In this document: positions 10,080 through 55,711 of the stretch, one piece after another
Layout: each line of letters starts with the position of its first letter
Position numbering within the stretch: position 1 is the first letter of the stretch
NCBI RefSeq assembly: GCF_001570585.1
Contig: NZ_BBXF01000002.1
Coordinates: 1,062,898 to 1,126,897, forward strand
Direction: 5' to 3'
Length of the DNA stretch: 64,000 nucleotides
Origin: Herbidospora daliensis
GTDB taxonomy: Bacteria > Actinomycetota > Actinomycetes > Streptosporangiales > Streptosporangiaceae
Position numbers and translations under genes: made by a program
Notes under the pieces: model-generated
The model's input: only the letters and a program-made list of their open reading frames with translations
Told to the model about the DNA's origin: nothing
Database searches by the model: none

Positions 10080-10703
10080 ATGGTCGGGGTCCCGCTCGCT
10101 CGCCGTTCGAAACGCCGCGCGCACCGAATACCGCACCGGCTCGAAGCGGTGGTCGACTACGCCCGGCTGGGCTGGGCGAGCTGTCTGGGAGCTCATCCGC
10201 TGCGCGAGGGGCAGCGGGCGTGCTCATGTGACCGTGTGGGCTGTCCCGATCCGGGCGCCCATCCGCTCTCGCCCGCCTGGCGCATGCAGGCCACCACCGA
10301 CACGGCCCAGCTCACCCGGTGGTGGGAGCAGGAGCCGGAGGCGAACGTCATCCTGCCCACCGGACGCGTATTCGACGTGTTCGACGTCCCGGCGGAGCTC
10401 GGGATGTCCGCCCTGACCACACTGGAGTCCCCAGGCCCGGTTGCCGCGAGCGGCGACCGGGTTCTGTTTTTCGTGGCCACGCGCGGCAACCCCGAAGACG
10501 AGGACGAGTGGTGGACCTCGTCGATCGACCACGCGCCCGAGACGATCGAGTCGAACCCGGGGCTGCGCTGGCACTGCCGTGACTCCTACGTCATGGCGCC
10601 GCCGTCGTCGCTGGTCGGCGGGGGGACCGTGCGGTGGCTCCGGCCGCCTGACGGGCGTCCGCTGCCCGATCCGCTGCGCGTGCTGGACGTGCTCGCCGAC
10701 TAG
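10080..10703 (+). CDS. Bifunctional DNA primase/polymerase (prim-pol) domain protein
   Basis: 207 aa from ATG 10080, preceded by GGGGGAGGAA. The segment [15 protein letters not shown], a cysteine-rich loop ([20 protein letters not shown]) and a [16 protein letters not shown] block match the N-terminal half of prim-pol (archaeo-eukaryotic primase-like) proteins of actinobacteria. The family's catalytic DxD is replaced by DVFDVP, and no helicase or other partner domain follows. It is probably a degenerate or regulatory relative. It lies between hemB and hemL, with only 5 bases before hemL, so co-transcription is likely. Confidence 0.65.
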
Positions 10704-10708
10704 GCTCG

Positions 10709-12007
10709 GTGGCCGTGAGTCGTACCGATGAATCAGCGGCCCTGTTCGCGCGGGCCAAGGAGATCGTGCCGGGTGGGGTCAACTCGCCGGTCCGGGCGTT
10801 CAACTCGGTGGGGGGCACGCCCCGCTTCATGGCGTCCGGGCAGGGGCCCCGCATCACCGACGTCGACGGGAACACCTACGTCGACCTGGTCTGCTCGTGG
10901 GGGCCGATGATCCTGGGTCACCGCCACCCGGCGGTGGTCGAGGCGGTCACCGAGGCGATGTCCCGCGGGTTCTCGTTCGGCACGGCGACCGAGGGCGAGG
11001 TGCTGCTGGCCGAGGAGATCGTCTCCCGGGTCGCGCCGGTCGAGAAGATCCGCCTGGTCAGCTCGGGCACCGAGGCCACCATGAGCGCGGTACGGCTGGC
11101 GCGCGGCTTCACCGGCCGCTCGAAGATCGTCAAGTTCGCCGGCTGCTACCACGGCCACGTCGACGCGCTGCTGGCCTCGGCCGGGTCGGGCGTGGTGACG
11201 TTCGGCCTGCCCGACACCCCGGGGGTGACGGGCGCGGCGGCGGCCGACACGCTGGTGCTGCCCTACAACGACCTGGCGGCGGTCGAGGAGGCGTTCACGC
11301 TCCACGAGATCGCCGCGGTGATCACCGAGGCGTGCCCGGCCAACATGGGCGTGGTGCCGCCCGCCGAGGGGTTCAACCGGCGGCTGAAGGAGCTCTGCGC
11401 GGCCAACGGCGCGCTGCTCATCGTCGACGAGGTGCTGACCGGCTTCCGGGTCTCGGCCGAGGGGTGGTACGGCCTCGACCCGGTGGACGCCGACCTGATG
11501 ACCTTCGGCAAGGTCATGGGCGGCGGGCTGCCCGCCGCCGCGTTCGGCGGACGGGCCGACGTGATGGCCCGGCTGGCCCCGGAGGGCCCCGTCTACCAGG
11601 CGGGCACCCTGTCGGGTAACCCCCTGGCCTGCGCGGCCGGTCTGGCGACGCTGCGCAACTGTGACGCCGGCGTCTACGCGCGGATCGATGCGGCCGCCCT
11701 GACCCTCGGCGACGCCGTGTCCGGCGCTCTCGCGGCCGAAGGCGTCGCGCACCGGCTCCAGCGGGCCGGCAACCTGTTCTCGATCTTCTTCACCGAGGGG
11801 CCGGTGACCGACTTCGCGTCGGCGAAGACCCAGAACACGGCCGTGTTCACCGCGTTCTTCCACGCGATGCTCGACCAGGGCGTCTATCTTCCCCCGTCGG
11901 CCTTCGAGGCCTGGTTCCTGTCGTCGGCCCATGACGACGGAGCTCTGTCGAAGGTCGTCGATGCTCTTCCGATCGCGGCCAAGGCCGCGGCCCAGGCTGC
12001 CGGTTAG
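10709..12007 (+). CDS. hemL: Glutamate-1-semialdehyde 2,1-aminomutase
   Basis: 432 aa from GTG 10709; a second GTG at 10715 is equally possible. This is a class III PLP aminotransferase fold that converts glutamate-1-semialdehyde to 5-aminolevulinate. The motifs [56 protein letters not shown] and the PLP lysine in [18 protein letters not shown] are all intact. It completes, with hemA and hemB, the route to porphobilinogen within this cluster. Its stop overlaps the end of the opposing 39-aa gene by two bases. Confidence 0.97.
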
Positions 12008-12123
12008 GCGACCCGGGCGCGGTTCTTGGCGCGCGACTGGCGGGCGTTGGAGGCCAGGGTCTCCAGGTAGGAGACGCGGGCGGTGGCGGACTGCTTCGTG
12101 AAGAGGTTGTTGATGATTCGCAT
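12004..12123 (-). CDS. 39-aa microprotein divergent from LysR gene
   Basis: The ORF encodes a basic peptide beginning [16 protein letters not shown] and ending [10 protein letters not shown]. It is too short for routine ORF calling. Of its 39 sense codons, 38 end in G or C, the same bias as the neighbouring true genes, which argues strongly for translation. The sequence predicts one amphipathic helix with a highly basic tail. It is divergent from the LysR gene at 12196 and convergent with hemL. The ribosome site is weak (GAAGA). No family is recognised; a regulatory target of the LysR protein is the simplest inference. Confidence 0.65.
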
Positions 12124-12138
12124 GTCTTCATCATGCAA

Positions 12139-12161
12139 CGCTTAATAGTTGAGGACAAGCG
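12139..12161. promoter_or_regulatory. Candidate LysR binding dyad
   Basis: CGCTT and AAGCG are separated by 13 bases in the short divergent gap between the microprotein and the LysR gene, the layout expected of a LysR recognition site. The arms are only five bases. Confidence 0.35.
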
Positions 12162-12195
12162 AGATTTTCTTGGGTCGACCCTTTAGACTGACTAC

Positions 12196-13116
12196 ATGTT
12201 GGACTTGCACCGTCTGAAGGCCCTCCACGCGGTCGCCACCTACGGTTCGGTCGGCGCGGCGGCCGAGGCGCTCATGGTCACCCCCTCGGCCATCTCCCAG
12301 CAGCTCGCCAAGCTGGAGAAGGAGACCGGCGCGGTGCTCGTCGAGCGCAACGGCCGCGGCGTGAAGCTCACCGACGCCGCCGGGCTGCTCGCCGAGCACG
12401 CCGAGAAGATCCTCGCCCTGGTCGAGACGGCCGAGGCCGACTTCGAGGCGCTGCGCGGGGCGGTGGTCGGGCGGTTGTCGATCGCGGCCTTCCCGACGGC
12501 CGCGCGCGGCATCTTCCCGGCCGCGCTGAAGCTGCTCAACGAACAGCACCCCGACCTCGGCATGCTGTTCTGGGAGCGCGAGCCCGAACGGCAGATACGC
12601 GAGGTCACCCGGGGCGAGATCGACCTGGCGGTGGTGCAGGACTGGCTGAACCGCCCGATGGCCATCCCCGAGGGCCTGTCACGGGCCGCCCTGCTCGACG
12701 ACGTCGCCGACATCGCCGTGCCGGCCGACCACCCGCTGGCCGACCGGCGTGAGATCTCCCTGTCGGAGCTGCCCGACGACCGCTGGATCACCTCGGCGCC
12801 GAGCACGGTCTGCCACGACTTCCTGCTGTTCCTGGTGCGGTCGGCGGGCAAGGAGCCCGACATCGTCTGCATGGCCGACGAATATCCGACCCAGCTCGCG
12901 CTGGTCGCGGGCGGCCACGGCCACGCGCTGATCCCCCGGCTCGGGCGCGGCGTGCTGCCCGAGGGGGTCAGGGCGATCCCGATCCTGCCCCGGCCGACCC
13001 GGCGCATCTACGCCCTGTGGCGGACCGACGCGGCCCGCCGCCCGGCCATCCGGGCCGCCGTCGACGCGCTGCGCACGGTCTGCTCCCATTTGGAAACCAC
13101 CCTTCGGCTCGCCTGA
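12196..13116 (+). CDS. LysR-family transcriptional regulator
   Basis: 306 aa from ATG 12196. The N-terminal winged helix is typical (LDLHRLKALHAVATYGSVGA, TPSAISQQLAKLEKETGAVL, ERNGRGVKLTDAG-like wing). A two-lobed substrate-binding domain follows from residue 90 (VVGRLSIAAFPTAARGIFPA). The effector is unknown. It faces the 39-aa gene across 72 bases, the usual arrangement of a LysR protein and its target. The histidine phosphatase gene follows 39 bases downstream. Confidence 0.92.
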   Translation: MLDLHRLKALHAVATYGSVGAAAEALMVTPSAISQQLAKLEKETGAVLVERNGRGVKLTDAAGLLAEHAEKILALVETAEADFEALRGAVVGRLSIAAFPTAARGIFPAALKLLNEQHPDLGMLFWEREPERQIREVTRGEIDLAVVQDWLNRPMAIPEGLSRAALLDDVADIAVPADHPLADRREISLSELPDDRWITSAPSTVCHDFLLFLVRSAGKEPDIVCMADEYPTQLALVAGGHGHALIPRLGRGVLPEGVRAIPILPRPTRRIYALWRTDAARRPAIRAAVDALRTVCSHLETTLRLA

Positions 13117-13155
13117 CGCCGTCTCGTCATGTGGTCCGAGTAGGCTGGCGCCACC

Positions 13156-13779
13156 ATGACTGAGACGACCGTCGTTCACCTGTTGCGCCATGGTGAGGTC
13201 TACAACCCGACCGGGGTCCTCTACGGCAGGCTGCCCGGCTTCCACCTGTCGGACAACGGCCGGGCGATGGCCGACATGGTGGCCAAGTCGATCGCCAACC
13301 GCGACATCGTGACTCTGTGGAGCTCGCCGATGGAGCGGGCCCAGGAGACCGCCGCCCCCTCCGCCGAGGCGCTGAAACTCCCCGTGGTCCTCGACGAGCG
13401 GCTGACCGAGGCCATGAACGTCTTCGAGGGCAAACCGGTGGCCGGTGACAACCGCGCCTTCTTCCGCGACCCCCGCAACTTCTGGCACTTCCGCGACCCG
13501 CGCCGCCCCTCGTGGGGCGAGGCCTACCGCGACGTGGTGGCCCGCATGAAGTCGGTGATCGACGACGCCCGCGCCGAGTCCCGGGGCCACGAGGCGCTGC
13601 TGGTCTCCCACCAGCTGCCGATCTGGATCATGCGGCTGGCCGCCGAGAGCAAACGCCTCTGGCACGACCCGCGCCGCCGCCAGGCCAGCCTGTGCAGCCT
13701 GACCTCCTTCACCTTCGACGGCGACCGTCTCATCAGCGTCGGCTACAGCGAGCCCGCCGCGGCGCTGCTCAAGGGCTGA
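13156..13779 (+). CDS. Histidine phosphatase family protein
   Basis: 207 aa from ATG 13156. The catalytic motif LLRHGEV (RHG) is near the N-terminus, and the second histidine lies in LLVSHQLPIW. The conserved acid/base Glu region (VLDERLTEAMNVFEGK) is between them. It is a phosphoglycerate-mutase-fold phosphatase; the substrate is unknown. In many actinobacteria this gene precedes the resA-ccdA-resB-ccsB cluster, as here, though an aldo/keto reductase gene intervenes on the other strand. It overlaps that gene tail to tail by 11 bases. Confidence 0.9.
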   Translation: MTETTVVHLLRHGEVYNPTGVLYGRLPGFHLSDNGRAMADMVAKSIANRDIVTLWSSPMERAQETAAPSAEALKLPVVLDERLTEAMNVFEGKPVAGDNRAFFRDPRNFWHFRDPRRPSWGEAYRDVVARMKSVIDDARAESRGHEALLVSHQLPIWIMRLAAESKRLWHDPRRRQASLCSLTSFTFDGDRLISVGYSEPAAALLKG

Positions 13780-14647
13780 TCCCCAGGTTCAGCCGGGCCA
13801 TCTCGTCGCCGGACAGCCGCAACCCTCCGGCGGCGACGTTCTCCTCGAGGTGCCGCGGATTCCCGGTGCCCGGGATGGCGAGCACGTGGTCGCCCTGCTG
13901 CAACGTCCAGGCCAGCCTGACCTGTGCGGCGCTCGCCCCGTGCGCGCGGGCGACGGCGAGCACCTCCGGGTGCTCCTCGGAGGTCGCTCCCGCCTCCCGC
14001 CCGGCCCCCGCGATGGCGAAGAACGGCACGAAGGCGATCCCCAGCTCGCCGCACCGGTGCAGCAGCTCTCGCTCTCCCGCCGTCGCGCCGATCCCGAAGG
14101 GGTTCTGTACGCACACCACCGGCGCGATGGCCCGAGCCTCGGCCAGCTGCTCCGCCGTCGCGTTGGACACTCCGAGGTGACGGATGAGCCCGGCGTCCCG
14201 GAGCCCGGCCAGCGCGCCGAAGTGCTCGGCGATCGAACCGCCGCGGCGGCTCGGCGGGATCCGCAGGTTCACCACGTCGAGATGATCGCGCCCGAGCTGG
14301 CGCAGGTTCTCCTCGACCTGACCGCGCAGTTGCTCGGGGGTGGCCCACCACCACGCGCCCGACGGATCCCGCGCCGGCCACACCTTCGTGGCGATCACGA
14401 GGTCGTCGGGGTAGGGGGACAGCGCCCGGTTGATCAGCTCGTTGGCCGACAGCCGGGGTGAGAAATAGAAGGCGGCGGTGTCGATGTGATCGACCCCGAG
14501 CTCGACCGCCCGCCGCAACACCGTGATCGACCGGTCGCGGTCGGCCGGGACGCCGGCTCCGAAGGCGACGTTTCCGGTCAGGCGCATCGCCCCGAATCCG
14601 ATGCGGTTGACGGTCAGGTCGCCCAGTTCTGCCGTGGAAGTAGACAT
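13769..14647 (-). CDS. Aldo/keto reductase
   Basis: 292 aa from ATG 14647, with a GGGGAGG ribosome site. TIM-barrel NADPH-dependent oxidoreductase. The barrel start is NRIGFGAMRLTG. The catalytic Asp/Tyr lie in DHIDTAAFYFS, the catalytic Lys in DLVIATKVWP and the His position in LDVVNLRIPPS. The NADP-binding C-terminal segment is AIPGTGNPRHLEENVAA. The catalytic His is not obvious in LDVVNLRI, where many family members have L.H, so catalysis may differ. Substrate unknown. It ends in an 11-base convergent overlap with the histidine phosphatase gene. Confidence 0.88.
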   Translation of the reverse strand: MSTSTAELGDLTVNRIGFGAMRLTGNVAFGAGVPADRDRSITVLRRAVELGVDHIDTAAFYFSPRLSANELINRALSPYPDDLVIATKVWPARDPSGAWWWATPEQLRGQVEENLRQLGRDHLDVVNLRIPPSRRGGSIAEHFGALAGLRDAGLIRHLGVSNATAEQLAEARAIAPVVCVQNPFGIGATAGERELLHRCGELGIAFVPFFAIAGAGREAGATSEEHPEVLAVARAHGASAAQVRLAWTLQQGDHVLAIPGTGNPRHLEENVAAGGLRLSGDEMARLNLGISP

Positions 14648-14790
14648 GAAAAAAGCCTCCCCGCTGTGCAAGGAGGCGTGATCCGTCCCGATCATTCTAG
14701 CGCGAGCTGTCGGGACGCCGGTCCCGGCTCCCGTTCGGGGCACCGGCCGGGGTGGCCGATACTATGGTTGCTCTACCGGTTGTAGTTCAA

Positions 14791-14800
14791 GGAGATCTCC
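14791..14800. promoter_or_regulatory. Palindrome overlapping the resA ribosome-binding site
   Basis: GGAGATCTCC is a perfect 10-base palindrome just before the resA ATG and contains the Shine-Dalgarno bases. It could hide the site in a hairpin or bind a regulator; chance is also possible. Confidence 0.3.
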
Positions 14801-14803
14801 TCC

Positions 14804-15382
14804 ATGTCCCCCTTCTCGCGTGCTCTCGTCGCCGTGTGCACGGCGCTGGTTCTGACCGGATGCGCCGGGAACGTCGGGGGTTCGGGGCAGCCGGAGTCCG
14901 ACGACACCCGGTTCGTCGCCGGTGACGGCAAGGTCCAGGTGTTCGCGGCCGGCGACCGCAAGCCGGCTCCCGTCGTCGCGGGGCAGACCCTCGAAGGCGC
15001 CCAGACGGCGATGGCCAAGGGCAAGGTCACGGTGATCAACTTCTGGGCCTCGTGGTGCGCGCCGTGCCGGGCCGAAGGGCCGACGCTCAAGGACGTCGCC
15101 GCCCGCACCAAGGCCGACGGCGTCGACTTCCTCGGCATCAACTTCAAGGACCAGAAGGCCGCCGCCACCGCCTACGACGCCCAGCTCACGCCGGGCTACC
15201 CGAGCATCCACGACCAGAGCGGCAAGGTGCTGCTCGGGTTCTCCGGCACGGTGCCGCCCGCAGCCATCCCCTCCACGCTCATCATCGACCGTGAGGGCCG
15301 GATCGCGGCCCGCGCCCTGGGCGCGGTCAAGTACCAGGCCCTGCTCGACGCCGTGACCAAGGTCTCCAGTGAATCTCGCTGA
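14804..15382 (+). CDS. resA: Thiol-disulfide lipoprotein ResA/TlpA
   Basis: 192 aa from ATG 14804. The signal peptide ends in a lipobox (VLTGCAGN), so the protein is anchored outside the membrane by a lipidated cysteine. A thioredoxin fold follows with the redox motif WASWCAPCRAEGPTL and the cis-Pro region AIPSTLIID. In system II cytochrome c maturation it reduces the apocytochrome CXXCH cysteines before haem attachment, drawing electrons from CcdA. The stop overlaps ccdA by 14 bases, so the four genes resA-ccdA-resB-ccsB are coupled. Confidence 0.93.
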   Translation: MSPFSRALVAVCTALVLTGCAGNVGGSGQPESDDTRFVAGDGKVQVFAAGDRKPAPVVAGQTLEGAQTAMAKGKVTVINFWASWCAPCRAEGPTLKDVAARTKADGVDFLGINFKDQKAAATAYDAQLTPGYPSIHDQSGKVLLGFSGTVPPAAIPSTLIIDREGRIAARALGAVKYQALLDAVTKVSSESR

Positions 15383-50716: not shown

Positions 50717-51670
50717 TCATCTCGCTGCCGCGCCGAGCCTTGCCAGGAGCACCCCGCTCAGCAGGAGCACGACGGCCTGCGCGACGGTGACGGCGTTGAG
50801 CGTCGCGGTGACCTGGTCGGCGGCCGGGCTCAGATAGGAGAGACGGGCCACGGCCACGGGGACGGTGAGGATGGCCAGCGCCAGCGGCACCGAAGGGGAG
50901 CGTCGCCGGGGTGTGGACAGATAGGTCACGACATATCCGGTGCAGGCCACCAGTAGCGCCAGGCTGGACAAGCCCGACGGCGACAACCACGGCCACGCCC
51001 AGGCCCACGAACCGGGGAACTGGGGCGACCGGATCGACGCCGTCATGGCCCAGGTCGCCAGGGTGACGACCAGGAAGAGGGCCGCTCCGGCGAGCAGGGG
51101 GAGGGCCGTGAGCCACCTCGGGTGGTGGTGCGTGGGGGCGTCCCGGTGAAAGCCCGCCAGCAGGGCGGCCACGGTGACCACCAGCGGGAGGGACTCCGGC
51201 GAGGCCGGGACGTACAGGATGAGGCCGAGGAGCGCCGTCGCCTTGGCGACGCGCGGGCGGCCCCGGACCAGCGCGACGTAGGCGGCGATCCAGAGCACGG
51301 ACGAGAGCTCTCTGACCAGGTGCCACAGGCGCTCGGCCGACGCGGGCTCGCCGATCGGGAGTTCGCCGGCGGGGTAGGGCAGCAGGCCGTGGACGCCCAG
51401 CGTCTGCGCCAGGTAGACGCAGCTCATCGCGGCCTGGAAGGCCAGGCCGATCAGGGCGGTCAGCCGGACAGCTCCGCCCCACGCGCCGAGGCGGAGGCGC
51501 ACGGCGAGTGCGGCCACGCTGGCGATCTCCGGCCAGCGTGGCCGCGCGTCGTCGCCGGCCGGTCCGGCGCCGTCGAGGAACGCCGAGACCATCTCCTCCT
51601 CGCGTTCGGCGCGGTAGCTCGCCGGGAGCAGCCGGAGCACCCGCCGGTAGCGGGACTCCAGGGCGGTCAC
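50717..51670 (-). CDS. Polytopic membrane protein controlled by PadR
   Basis: 317 aa from GTG 51670. A soluble N-terminal segment (ESRYRRVLRLLPASYRAERE EEM type) precedes about eight membrane helices. This shape, with a PadR regulator immediately upstream, is common in actinobacteria, where it is often linked to envelope stress or efflux. Function unknown. Confidence 0.78.
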   Translation of the reverse strand: MTALESRYRRVLRLLPASYRAEREEEMVSAFLDGAGPAGDDARPRWPEIASVAALAVRLRLGAWGGAVRLTALIGLAFQAAMSCVYLAQTLGVHGLLPYPAGELPIGEPASAERLWHLVRELSSVLWIAAYVALVRGRPRVAKATALLGLILYVPASPESLPLVVTVAALLAGFHRDAPTHHHPRWLTALPLLAGAALFLVVTLATWAMTASIRSPQFPGSWAWAWPWLSPSGLSSLALLVACTGYVVTYLSTPRRRSPSVPLALAILTVPVAVARLSYLSPAADQVTATLNAVTVAQAVVLLLSGVLLARLGAAAR

Positions 51671-52005
51671 GCCGGGCCGCCCGCGTGCCGGGCTCGCAGC
51701 CGCTCCGTCGCGTAGCGGGCATGCGCGGCCAGGCGGGCGGCCTCGGCCTCCAGGGCCTGGACGCCCTGGTCGGTGAGCCGGTAGTAACGCCGCAGCCGGC
51801 CCTGATGGGCTTCCTCGCGGTCGAGCGACACGAGTTCGTCGGCGGCCAGCCGGTCGAGCACGCCGTAGAGGGTGCCGATCTTGAGCTGGACGCGTCCTTC
51901 GGAGAGCCGCTCGACCTCCTGGACGATGCCGTAGCCGTGGCGCGAGGCGTCGGCGAGCGTGGTGAGGACGAGGAACGCCTGTTCCGTCAGGCCCCTTGAG
52001 TTCAT
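51667..52005 (-). CDS. PadR-family transcriptional regulator
   Basis: 112 aa from ATG 52005. Winged helix (LTEQAFLVLTTLADASRHGY, VQLKIGTLYGVLDRLAADEL, RLRRYYRLTDQGVQALEAEA) with a short C-terminal helix. A perfect 11-bp dyad lies 8 bases before its start. Overlaps the membrane-protein gene by 4 bases, so both are one operon. Confidence 0.93.
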   Translation of the reverse strand: MNSRGLTEQAFLVLTTLADASRHGYGIVQEVERLSEGRVQLKIGTLYGVLDRLAADELVSLDREEAHQGRLRRYYRLTDQGVQALEAEAARLAAHARYATERLRARHAGGPA

Positions 52006-52012
52006 GGGGCCC

Positions 52013-52039
52013 AGCATATCTTGTTCGCCAAGATATGCT
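52013..52039. promoter_or_regulatory. PadR operator
   Basis: AGCATATCTTG and CAAGATATGCT are perfect 11-base arms around TTCGC. It lies directly upstream of padR and overlaps the stop codon of the TNT-like gene. Confidence 0.75.
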
Positions 52040-52733
52040 AGGACGGCGGAGTCAGCTCCTTCAGGTATCCGTTGTCCAGCAGCCAGCGCACCGGCACCTC
52101 CTCGCTCGACTGCGGGGCCTCCGGGATGTACTTGCTGAGCACGTGATACTGCGTGCCGCCGCCCGGCTGCTGGAAGGCGGGGGAGACCGGGCCCACGTCG
52201 ACGCGGAACGACTTGGTCACCCGGAAGACGTGATAGTTGCACGGATGGGCGGGGTCCTGCGGATTGGTGTTGAGGTTCCGCGGCGGCAGCGCGCGCTTGC
52301 TGAAAGCGTCTCCCATCGGCGCGAAGAACGCGCCGCCGTAACCGCCGAAACGGTCGAGCAGCATGCCGATCTGGAGAAACGTCGTCTTCGACAGCAGTCG
52401 GCCGTTGGGGTAATTGCCGGAAAGGGCGAAACCCGCGTTCGGCGGGTAGCGATAGTCGTTCATCGCGTAGTTCCAGTAACGCGACAGGAAGTGCTGCGGT
52501 GCCAGACCGCCCATGGGCACGTATCCGCGCACCAATGCGCCGAGGTAGCCCGAACGGGGGAGGCGGACCGGGCCGAGGTCGGGATCGCCGGTCACGTACG
52601 GCGCGCCGCAGACCACCCCGATGGCGGCCTTCGACGGCCGGGGTTTCACAACGGCGTTTTCCGCGTGCGCGGCCGTGCCGGCCATGACGAACATCGCGGC
52701 GGTCAGCATGACGCCGCGTCGGAGATATTGCAT
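52038..52733 (-). CDS. Secreted TNT-fold NAD glycohydrolase-like protein
   Basis: 231 aa from ATG 52733, with an AGGGAAG site. A Sec signal peptide ends TAAHA|EN. The C-terminal domain (112-231) has the tuberculosis-necrotizing-toxin pattern: FLQIGMLLDRFGGYGGAFFA, SKRALPPRNLN, YHVFRVTKSFRVDVGPVSPA, FQQPGGGTQYHV and VRWLLDNGYLKEL. R128 and Q195 fit the catalytic Arg and Gln of TNT-type NADases as I recall them. It may hydrolyse NAD+ outside the cell or be a toxin. There is no adjacent antitoxin of the IFT type. Confidence 0.8.
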   Translation of the reverse strand: MQYLRRGVMLTAAMFVMAGTAAHAENAVVKPRPSKAAIGVVCGAPYVTGDPDLGPVRLPRSGYLGALVRGYVPMGGLAPQHFLSRYWNYAMNDYRYPPNAGFALSGNYPNGRLLSKTTFLQIGMLLDRFGGYGGAFFAPMGDAFSKRALPPRNLNTNPQDPAHPCNYHVFRVTKSFRVDVGPVSPAFQQPGGGTQYHVLSKYIPEAPQSSEEVPVRWLLDNGYLKELTPPS

Positions 52734-52851: not shown

Positions 52852-52899
52852 GTGCATAATTCGGTCTCGGCGGGTGGTTCCGTGCGGCAAGCTGGGGGC

Positions 52900-53847
52900 G
52901 TGCATGCCCCCACCCCTGCGGACGAGGTCAACACCCCGCGCACGCAGGCCGGCCCCAGCCCGCAACACCTGCTGACGACGCTGCTCGGTGAATATCTCGA
53001 CTCCTCCGACGCCGATCTTCCGTCGGCGGCGGTGGTCGCGATGCTCGCGGAGTTCGGCATCAGCGAGTCGAGCGCGCGGGCCGCGTTGTCGCGGCTGACC
53101 AAGCGCGGGCTGATCGCCGTACGGGGAACCGGCCGGCCGCCCGTCTACCACCTGACGCCGCAGGCCATCGCCCGGCATCGGTCCCGGATGGACCACTTCC
53201 TGAGCTTCGGCGCGCGGCCGCCGCGCTGGACCGGCGACTGGGTGACCGTCTCGTTCTCGCTGCCCCAGTCGGGCCAGGCCGCGAGGCATACGCTCCGCAA
53301 AACCCTGGGGGCGCTGGGTTTCGCCCGGTTGTACGACAGCGTGTGGATCCGCCCCGGCTCCGAGGCGGGCACCATGAACAAGGTGCTGCACGACATCCTC
53401 GACGGGGTCGACGGCGCACGATGGTCGGTCATGCACACCCGGTTCGACGACGAAGCGGGCCCGCACGGCCCGGCCGCCGCCTATGACCTGGCCGGACTCG
53501 CCGCGTCCTACGAGGAGTTCATCGCGCGCTACGCCGAGCTGCGGGCGGCCGTCCGTGACGGCGAGGTCGACGCGACCCGGGCGCTGGTGGCCCGCACCTC
53601 GGTGATGGACTCGTGGCGGAAGTTCCCCGACACCGACCCCGACCTGCCCGGACATCTGCTGCCCGCGCGGTGGCCCCGGCAGGAGGCCAGAGAGCTGCTG
53701 CTGGAGGTCCACACCGCGCTCGGCTCACTCGCGGAGGCGCGGCTGATCGAGATCGCCACCCCGCACTGGCCGGACGCCGCGTCGTGGATCACCCACTTCC
53801 GGGTGTCGGCGGACTCCGTCTCCGTTTCGACCCGCGGAGACGGTTGA
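52900..53847 (+). CDS. PaaX-family transcriptional repressor
   Basis: 315 aa from GTG 52900 (GGGGG upstream). N-terminal winged helix (LLTTLLGEYLDSSDADLPSA; FGISESSARAALSRLTKRGL) and PaaX core (WTGDWVTVSFSLPQ; LGFARLYDSVWIRPGS). In E. coli PaaX responds to phenylacetyl-CoA; here no paa genes are seen. It faces the TNT gene and probably regulates it, which is inference. Confidence 0.88.
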   Translation: MHAPTPADEVNTPRTQAGPSPQHLLTTLLGEYLDSSDADLPSAAVVAMLAEFGISESSARAALSRLTKRGLIAVRGTGRPPVYHLTPQAIARHRSRMDHFLSFGARPPRWTGDWVTVSFSLPQSGQAARHTLRKTLGALGFARLYDSVWIRPGSEAGTMNKVLHDILDGVDGARWSVMHTRFDDEAGPHGPAAAYDLAGLAASYEEFIARYAELRAAVRDGEVDATRALVARTSVMDSWRKFPDTDPDLPGHLLPARWPRQEARELLLEVHTALGSLAEARLIEIATPHWPDAASWITHFRVSADSVSVSTRGDG

Positions 53848-54031
53848 GAAAGTTTCATCTCCGAACGGTCGTCCGTCGGCGGGGTGATCTGCGCGCCCGG
53901 AAATCCGCCAGGTCAGCGTGCAATGTGGTTTTTGACACTTTTCATGACCGCAGTGATAGTAACTGCACGTTCTCGGGCTCCGTCGCGTGCCACCCGACCT
54001 GGAGCGCCGTCGTGACACTTCGGAGGGTGAA

Positions 54032-55237
54032 ATGAGAAAACGCTCGATCATCAGCGCGGGATTGGCGGCCGTCGTCCCGTTACTGGCCGGACTGGTGGCG
54101 CTCACCGGCGCGCCCGCCGCCGCGGCGGTCGGCGGTTCCGGCCCTTACCCGGCTGACTGGGAGACCTCCAACAGCCTGCAGAACCACACCATCTACCGGC
54201 CCGTGAACATCCCGTCGGTGAAACTGCCCATCTACGTGTGGGGCAACGGCGGCTGCTCCGCCAACGGGTTGTCGCAGGCCAACTTCCTCCGTGAGATCGC
54301 CTCCCACGGGTTCCTGGTCATCGCCAACGGCGGCCCGAACGCCTCGGGTTCGACGACGTCGCAGATGCTCACCCAGTCGATCGACTGGGCGATCTCGGAG
54401 AACGGCCGCCAGGGCAGCACCTTCTACAACAGGCTCGACACCGGCAAGATCGGCGTCGGCGGCTTCTCCTGCGGCGGCCTGGAGGCCTACGCCGTCTCCA
54501 ACGACTCACGCATCAGCACGACCACCATCTTCAGCAGCGGTCTGCTGAACGACGGCGACGACTACCAGCTGCGGCGGCTGACCAAGCCGATCGGCTACTT
54601 CATCGGCGGCAGCAGCGACATCGCCTACGGCAACGCCATGGACGACTGGGGCAAACTGCCCAGCGGGCTGCCCGCGTTCATGGGCAACCTGAACGTCGGC
54701 CACGGCGGCACCTACGGCCAGACCAACGGCGGCGAGTTCGGCCGGGTCGCGGTGTTGTGGCTGAAGTGGCGGCTGAAGGGCGACATCACGGCCGGCGCGA
54801 CCTTCGCCGGCAGCAGCTGCGTGTTGTGCAGCAGCGGGTGGCAGGTCCAGCGCAAGAACCTGGTCCTCGACGGCAGCTCCCCCTCGCCCTCGCCCAGCCC
54901 GTCGCCCAGTCCCTCGCCCAGCCCGTCGCCCAGCGCCGGGACCGAGGGGTGCTCGGCGACGTACACGGTGCAGGACCAGTGGAACAGCGGGTTCGTGGCC
55001 AGCATGACCGTCACCGCGGGCAGCACCGCGATCCGCGGCTGGCGGCTGACCCTGACGCTGCCCTCCGGGGCGGCGATCTCGACGATGTGGAACGGCGTCA
55101 ACTCCGGCACGACCGGAGCCGTGACCGTCACCAACCAGAGCTACAACGGGAACCTGTCGGCCGGGCAGAGCGCCACCCTCGGATTCCAGGGCACCGGGAC
55201 CGGCGCCGGCGCGACCGTGACCTGTACCGCCACCTGA
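54032..55237 (+). CDS. Secreted alpha/beta hydrolase with CBM2
   Basis: 401 aa from ATG 54032. Signal peptide (ends PAAAAVG). The hydrolase domain has a nucleophile elbow GFSCGGLEA, an Asp in GGSSDIAYG and a His in NVGHGGTYG as the likely triad. A 19-residue Ser-Pro linker leads to a cellulose-binding CBM2 with conserved Trp residues (DQWNSGF, IRGWRLTL, TMWNG). It would attach to cellulose and cleave an ester or amide nearby. Substrate unknown. Confidence 0.85.
   Translation: MRKRSIISAGLAAVVPLLAGLVALTGAPAAAAVGGSGPYPADWETSNSLQNHTIYRPVNIPSVKLPIYVWGNGGCSANGLSQANFLREIASHGFLVIANGGPNASGSTTSQMLTQSIDWAISENGRQGSTFYNRLDTGKIGVGGFSCGGLEAYAVSNDSRISTTTIFSSGLLNDGDDYQLRRLTKPIGYFIGGSSDIAYGNAMDDWGKLPSGLPAFMGNLNVGHGGTYGQTNGGEFGRVAVLWLKWRLKGDITAGATFAGSSCVLCSSGWQVQRKNLVLDGSSPSPSPSPSPSPSPSPSPSAGTEGCSATYTVQDQWNSGFVASMTVTAGSTAIRGWRLTLTLPSGAAISTMWNGVNSGTTGAVTVTNQSYNGNLSAGQSATLGFQGTGTGAGATVTCTAT
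54878..54934 (+). repeat. Ser-Pro linker coding repeat
   Basis: Tandem Ser-Pro codons (CCC TCG and CCC AGC units) encode the 19-residue flexible linker between hydrolase and CBM2. Repeat number may vary between strains. Confidence 0.9.
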
Positions 55238-55259
55238 CACATATATAAGGTGTGCGCCA

Positions 55260-55283
55260 GCCCGTGGCCGGTGGGCCACGGGC
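55260..55283 (+). terminator. Hairpin after the CBM2 hydrolase gene
   Basis: GCCCGTGGCC and GGCCACGGGC form a perfect 10-bp stem with a 4-base loop, 22 bases after the stop. No T-run follows, but such stems act as terminators in GC-rich actinomycetes. Confidence 0.7.
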
Positions 55284-55336
55284 TTCGGCGTACGCCGGTG
55301 TGTGACTCTGAGTAATCGAATTACTACTATCCAGGT

Positions 55337-55711
55337 ATGCGCACTCTTGTCGTCGCCGCCCTCGTGGCCGTCCCGCTGTTCGCCGCCCACCCCGCCGTGG
55401 CCGAGGCGCCCTCCGGGGCGCTGGTGCTCACCCGGAGCGTGAACGGCGGGCAGAAGGTGGTCGCCAAGCTCCTCTGCGACCCCGACGGGGGCTCGCACCC
55501 GGCGGCGAAGCAGGCGTGCGATCTGCTCCGGTCGGTCGACGGCGACCTCGCCAAGCTGGCGTACGACCCCGGCCGGATCTGCACCAAGGAGTACTTCCCG
55601 CACCAGGTGACCGCCGCCGGCACCTGGAAGGGCCAGGCGGTGCGCTACGCCCGGACCTTCGGCAACCGCTGTGAGATGTCGGCCGTCACCGGAGACCTGT
55701 TCACCTTCTGA
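55337..55711 (+). CDS. Secreted subtilisin-inhibitor-like (SSI) protein
   Basis: 124 aa from ATG 55337. Signal peptide (ends HPAVA|EA). SSI family with four cysteines at 47, 61, 82 and 112 and the CDPDGGSHPAAKQAC segment. The reactive loop is CTKEYFP: the P1 position, Met in Streptomyces SSI, is K84 here. This predicts inhibition of trypsin-like rather than subtilisin-like proteases. Overlaps the next gene tail to tail by 11 bases. Confidence 0.93.
   Translation: MRTLVVAALVAVPLFAAHPAVAEAPSGALVLTRSVNGGQKVVAKLLCDPDGGSHPAAKQACDLLRSVDGDLAKLAYDPGRICTKEYFPHQVTAAGTWKGQAVRYARTFGNRCEMSAVTGDLFTF

Follow-up and report, generated by a model that had tools for sequence, protein, structure and literature searches.

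A predicted exported TNT-family NADase of Herbidospora daliensis and the small candidate partner gene found beside many of its actinobacterial relatives

How might a bacterium export an enzyme that is predicted to destroy NAD(P)+ when no inhibitor gene lies beside it? The question is raised by a 64,000-nucleotide stretch of the Herbidospora daliensis genome (contig NZ_BBXF01000002.1; the whole stretch is referred to here as the window), for which a preliminary description proposed a stand-alone, Sec-exported TNT-like NADase encoded opposite a PaaX repressor, with export itself keeping the host safe. TNT domains – the former DUF4237 – are credited with more than 300 homologues in bacterial and fungal species (PMC6398120), and bacterial members as such are thus known; secreted, stand-alone actinobacterial members with a partner gene were not found in a search of the open-licence literature. 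From the sequence comparisons below we consider it probable that the protein is a Sec-exported NAD(P)+ glycohydrolase of the TNT family, built of thumb and palm and acting as an accessory exoenzyme, and that an immunity partner of the Streptomyces type is missing in Herbidospora.

The gene (Table 1) translates into 231 amino acids and a stop codon, as first described, and its start ATG is preceded by AGGGAAGTC. Its only Pfam domain is TNT (PF14021; E 3.7e-28), with 98.2 bits against a curated cut-off of 27, and NCBIfam, PHROGs and PADLOC returned no match. This is also the sole PF14021 match in the 8.5-Mb genome, which is given as 99.99% complete. Relative to four Herbidospora orthologues there are 67, 67, 64 and 87 changes at third codon positions against 26/18, 36/15, 39/28 and 55/37 at first/second positions, and this excess at the third position fits purifying selection. 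A catalytically dead remnant is ruled out by the same pattern and by the intact site residues.

Table 1. Features of the NADase locus, in coordinates of the window
Feature	Coordinates	Strand	Basis or remark
Stand-alone TNT-domain protein, predicted NADase, 231 aa	52041..52733	(-)	Stop codon 52038-52040
Signal-peptide-like N-terminus, ~residues 1-24 (MQYLRRGVMLTAAMFVMAGTAAHA)	52662..52733	(-)	By eye
Thumb region, ~residues 42-117, including Cys42	52383..52610	(-)	Alignment to fungal NADase thumb
TNT (palm) domain, residues 120-226, with D127, R128, F129, F136, R147, Q195 and Cys165	52056..52376	(-)	Pfam, alignment
PadR-type regulator	51670..52005	(-)	At the place of the small partner gene in most Streptomyces relatives
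317-aa protein with hydrophobic stretches, no confident family	50717..51670	(-)	Next to PadR
Divergent PaaX-type regulator (actual start possibly further inside)	52852..53847	(+)	PaaX, PaaX_M and PaaX_C above cut-off

The closest solved structures are fungal NADases, with E-values of 5.8e-35, 6.8e-35 and 2.1e-34 for Aspergillus fumigatus chains, 1e-34 for 8R15 and 6.9e-28 for 8R17; the TNT domain of Mycobacterium tuberculosis CpnT follows far behind (phmmer E 0.0031). The alignment with AfNADase (phmmer 6.8e-35) extends over residues 22-198 and takes in both thumb and TNT palm, a likeness in sequence shared with AfNADase/NadA (6YGE, 8PMR, 8PMS), 8R15 and 8R17 alike, together with the same catalytic set. 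In AfNADase, changes at R129, F137 and Q194 inactivate the enzyme, and R148 and D128 form a salt bridge (PMC7955114). The corresponding residues of the query include R128 and Q195, found where the preliminary description had placed them, and the site is completed by D127, F129, F136 and R147. Apart from F136, all of these are invariant in 12 of 12 rows of a first alignment and in 81 of 81 rows of a larger set (counts that leave out loci L007-L013, L020, L119 and L120), the conservation of Q195 in 80 of the loci being partly built in since the scan pattern contained that Q. At position 136, 41 of the 81 rows have F and the other 40 have Y, while three fungal chains have F, Y and F. The assignment as a stand-alone protein of NADase type is well supported by sequence, and the protein very likely destroys NAD.

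Likeness to the known systems has its limits. CpnT has the TNT domain in common with the query, with R780 (PMC7955114) and Gln822 (PMC6398120) named at the conserved places; CpnT is, however, larger, situated in the outer membrane and dependent on type VII secretion, and its operon includes an ift gene (PMC6398120, PMC8092274), whereas the query is small and lacks a linked inhibitor. The fungal enzymes are secreted, as is predicted for the query, although AfNADase is fungal and the query bacterial with presumed Sec export. No linked partner lies beside the query, and A. fumigatus and Neurospora crassa are without a homologue of the M. tuberculosis immunity factor (PMC7955114). Fungal surface NADases have been described as distinct from their bacterial counterparts and their thumb as structurally unique (PMC7955114). 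The thumb cysteines of AfNADase – C33, C38, C50 and C80, forming the disulfides C33-C80 and C38-C50 – are absent from the query, which has another pair instead.

That pair, Cys42 and Cys165, comprises the only cysteines of the query and presumably forms a disulfide. In 79 of the 81 rows a Cys stands 8-14 residues before an LGP motif and a second one 90-125 residues after it, and four more stand-alone proteins have the pair as well; in the domains of the long toxins L009 and L020 these positions are without Cys. In the two exceptions, from Peterkaempfera and Streptacidiphilus, a Cys is placed five residues ahead of LGP (position -5). The three fungal chains share this placement, but L012 and L013 do too, so that this Cys is ruled out as a private mark of the fungal chains and the Peterkaempfera/Streptacidiphilus proteins.

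Export, presumably by Sec, is likely. By eye, residues 1-24 look like a signal peptide, with RR, a hydrophobic run and a TAAHA end. Of the 80 relatives (the best 80 of 214 loci), 79 pass a lax hydropathy rule that asks for a possible start with a hydrophobic stretch behind it; a like rule is also passed by 405 of 654 other genes at the same loci, or by 149 of the 654 at the called start. The case for export therefore leans more on the printed starts of the relatives, many of which have a basic-hydrophobic-AxA pattern.

The divergent PaaX-type regulator of the preliminary description is indeed present (Table 1). It scores 117.6 bits against TIGR02277, below the phenylacetate equivalog cut-off of 264.55, and regulation by phenylacetate through PaaX has no support from this score or from an arrangement that, among the loci compared, only Herbidospora showed. 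The genes for PaaX, NADase and PadR and the membrane gene are neighbours at three of the four named loci of this genus (L022-L024) and likewise in its two genomes with decayed NADase copies; PaaX is absent from this place in H. cretacea and at 16 of 16 tested loci of other genera, and we therefore regard it as a local feature. Following PaaX, at 53987-55711 on the plus strand, are genes for two secreted-type proteins, one with a CBM2 domain (and a match to a PETase model below cut-off) and one subtilisin-inhibitor-like.

Seven Herbidospora genomes could be compared, and a full-length NADase match was found in five and a decayed one in two. In one of the latter (G002, L014) the gene is broken over several frames, and in the other (G004, L015) only the stretch for residues 195-228 is left between PaaX and PadR; the PaaX and PadR genes on either side of the decayed copies are nearly full-length. 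Decay in two of the seven genomes indicates that the NADase gene is dispensable.

Relatives of the protein are numerous among actinobacteria. When genome contigs were scanned, 214 stretches were confirmed; the best 80 of these were kept and are, judged by record title, all actinobacterial, including Herbidospora, Nonomuraea, Sphaerisporangium, Streptosporangium, Microbispora, Spongiactinospora, Actinoallomurus, Actinomadura, Frankia, Peterkaempfera, Streptacidiphilus and many Streptomyces. The 79 relatives with a start among these 80 loci have a median length of 238 aa (range 214-341, mostly 220-270), and the stand-alone TNT proteins of Streptomyces, Nonomuraea, Microbispora, Sphaerisporangium, Actinoallomurus and others agree with the query in family, size range and residues. 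One locus, titled Streptosporangium nondiastaticum (L081), is placed beside Streptomyces abikoensis by the tree and has a partner gene; its genus name may be wrong. On these comparisons the family appears as a large and little-described one, closest in sequence to the fungal-surface NADases.

Within the order to which the window belongs, PF14021 is matched in 92 of 150 genomes, and the query protein itself finds matches in 18 of 60 relatives at E <=0.001, decayed and distant copies included. The premise that TNT domains usually sit at the end of large toxins needs correcting for this order: 116 of the 138 PF14021 rows have an open frame of at most 460 aa, which is stand-alone size, a count that includes a second family with frames of 320-362 aa and some partial matches. 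The three members of this second family that were read (L118, L121 and L122, from genomes G123, G100 and G024) have a hydrophobic, anchor-like stretch, then a domain like the small partner protein described below, and last a TNT domain whose catalytic residues are altered (VDQFG, VDALG and GGVRF are examples); they are perhaps inactive, tethered relatives.

Clustering of neighbouring genes revealed a small conserved open reading frame just downstream of the NADase gene in many relatives. A profile of it was positive at 49 of the best 80 of the 214 loci, always on the NADase strand and 3-82 nt after the NADase stop; the 31 negative loci are L022-L043 (20 Streptosporangiaceae, one Actinoallomurus and one Actinomadura), eight Streptomyces and one Frankia whose contig stops 775 bases downstream of the NADase gene. 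Among the candidates scored in 150 Streptomyces genomes – part of the first-look candidates for both profiles – the NADase profile (A3) was matched in 45 and the partner profile (A2) in 46, with 43 genomes having both, two the NADase only and three the partner only (one of these at 23 bits). At 44 of the 47 places with an NADase match, the partner match lies directly downstream on the same strand, with 5-165 bases between the two, and the genes are presumably co-transcribed. Fisher's test for co-occurrence gives 1.8e-31, which describes linkage among related genomes and not independent events. The pair is present on three contigs of Streptomyces alfalfae XY25 with equal scores (L080, L085, L086) and near each end of the 8.2-Mb genome G289 (G289:C1:18491 and 8010438, where the partner matches run over a TGA), as if carried in terminal repeats.

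The partner protein has about 77 aa and by eye no signal peptide, and its gene varies most at the third codon position in eight of eight comparisons. It has no relative in Pfam or NCBIfam, and its profile finds only chance-level matches in the PDB, so that IFT is not matched. The partner also adjoins stand-alone TNT genes in genomes G102 and G147, and a distant partner-like domain precedes TNT in a 245-aa frame of G039 as well as in longer frames, of 331-362 aa, from G123, G100 and G024; these longer frames have a hydrophobic stretch of membrane-anchor type. These four fusions have E-values of 9e-11 to 2e-6 with an enlarged profile in a search of 10,000 sequences, and of 1e-7 to 0.003 with the first profile. 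Together, linkage and fusion are good evidence that the partner acts with the TNT domain, and the natural reading makes it a candidate immunity protein.

The small gene might instead encode a regulator, or a helper in folding or export of the NADase, and we judge this rather unlikely. Such a role could be argued from the fact that the partner is without a named or solved relative and owes its proposed function to linkage alone, and from the fusions to TNT domains whose catalytic residues are altered and which there would be no point in inhibiting. The TNT array of G039 (L117, G039:C111, ~10279-15019, minus strand) could be read in the same way: it consists of a long TNT toxin, a 226-aa gene, the partner and a partner-TNT fusion frame, and the partner, 799 bases and the 226-aa gene away from the toxin, is only second after it, such that the 226-aa gene may be the toxin's own immunity gene. 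Set against a helper, Pfam and NCBIfam give the partner no match to a family of regulators or chaperones, and it is linked to exported and non-exported TNT proteins alike. We retain candidate immunity as the preferred reading of the partner in what follows.

At the Herbidospora locus the partner is missing. Its profile has no match in the 64-kb window or at L022-L025 with ~5.9 kb downstream, and in the whole genome only one weak unlinked match (E 0.0105; L108, G000:C3:382630-382722), a small protein that shares its closing motif with the partner family and has no neighbouring TNT gene; a role as hidden inhibitor is not claimed for it. With up to 38 candidates scored per genome, the partner is matched in six of 150 genomes of the order and in none of the seven Herbidospora, and it is absent throughout the 16-row clade containing the query. 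Nor did the 31 partner-less loci have another conserved gene on the NADase strand within ~900 bases downstream (pieces of at least 35 aa, E <=1e-5); the one cross-genus match (L030-L035) lies on the opposite strand. The absence of an inhibitor thus stands for Herbidospora as far as the partner profile reaches – and the genome-wide search proposed at the outset has been made for that profile only – but does not extend to the family, in which 49 of 80 loci and 43 of 45 NADase-bearing Streptomyces genomes have the partner.

The proposal that export keeps the host safe is plausible for the Herbidospora lineage and is weakened as a general rule, because relatives of the same build have the candidate partner downstream; since most of the Streptomyces relatives examined keep it, export alone may not suffice everywhere. 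In those Streptomyces, the ~77-aa protein would probably bind enzyme that stays in, or re-enters, the cytosol. In Herbidospora, export and an oxidised Cys42-Cys165 pair may suffice, or an unlinked or unrelated inhibitor, possibly of another family, may take the partner's place.

Outside the cell, NAD(P)+ would be bound by D127-R128-F129, F136 and R147, and water would attack the ribose with help from Q195, yielding nicotinamide and ADP-ribose. No delivery module is seen, and the enzyme therefore most likely acts on NAD(P)+ that is extracellular or reachable at damaged neighbours. Its role would be that of an accessory exoenzyme, either in competition or in the supply of nicotinamide and ADP-ribose.

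A more aggressive role, in which the exported protein would find some way into neighbouring bacteria or fungi and kill them through NAD depletion, seems to us unlikely. TNT does occur in long toxin-type proteins of the same order (L009, L117, L016 and L019), and antibacterial toxins come with a linked immunity-like gene of the sort seen in the Streptomyces relatives. The protein, however, has 231 aa and no delivery domain, the eight neighbourhood open reading frames scanned include no secretion-system gene, and Herbidospora lacks a linked partner of known kind although the killing of kin would demand protection.

Alternatively, the enzyme could leave others unharmed and serve in scavenging or development, converting external NAD(P)+ to nicotinamide and ADP-ribose that the cell would take up or use to time its differentiation; we rate this as somewhat improbable. 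An NAD+ glycohydrolase of Streptomyces griseus is said, in the title of a 1996 report by Penyige cited in PMC7806871, to be tied to growth and differentiation, and S. griseus NCTC13033 has a family member with its partner (L077), whose connection to the 1996 activity is putative. The CBM2 and subtilisin-inhibitor-like proteins further on in the window are likewise of extracellular types. A core developmental gene, on the other hand, would not be expected to be decayed in two of seven Herbidospora genomes, or to be found in just 45 of 150 Streptomyces genomes among the candidates scored. An accessory exoenzyme remains the reading that we prefer.

The fungal likeness also bears on origin, and the evolution of fungal TNT enzymes is reportedly the subject of a 2024 study in Protein Science. 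In a tree of 53 rows, from which near-copies above a string-similarity ratio of 0.86 had been removed, the fungal chains – three fragments only – form one clade that lies among bacterial rows as sister to Peterkaempfera/Streptacidiphilus (99/94). A second tree with four more toxin domains, and with L055 and L011 dropped as long branches, retains this grouping at 91/88, and the toxin domains do not fall to one side of a branch. A topology in which the bacterial stand-alone proteins all stay together is not rejected (p-AU 0.145), and the nesting is therefore ruled out as proof of transfer; it suggests a transfer between actinobacteria and fungi.

A wider scheme, which we put forward tentatively and hold to be less likely than not, would join these observations. 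Actinobacteria would have a two-gene exo-NADase system, consisting of the enzyme and an undescribed TNT-binding immunity protein of ~77 aa; the surface NADases of Ascomycetes would derive by transfer from the Streptomycetaceae branch, with the partner dropped as in Herbidospora; and the small domain would have found a second use, fused to TNT as a built-in restraint. The non-adjacent partner in G039, the wider sharing of the Cys at -5 and the laxity of the signal rule each lower the odds of this scheme.

Lineages without the partner pose the question of how a cell exports an NADase safely, and the partner itself, if it is a TNT inhibitor, would be one of a new kind, unmatched in Pfam and NCBIfam. 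As the family is common in bacteria, has a thumb that can be aligned with the fungal thumb and is found in organisms that are easy to handle in the laboratory, both its function and its origin are directly testable.
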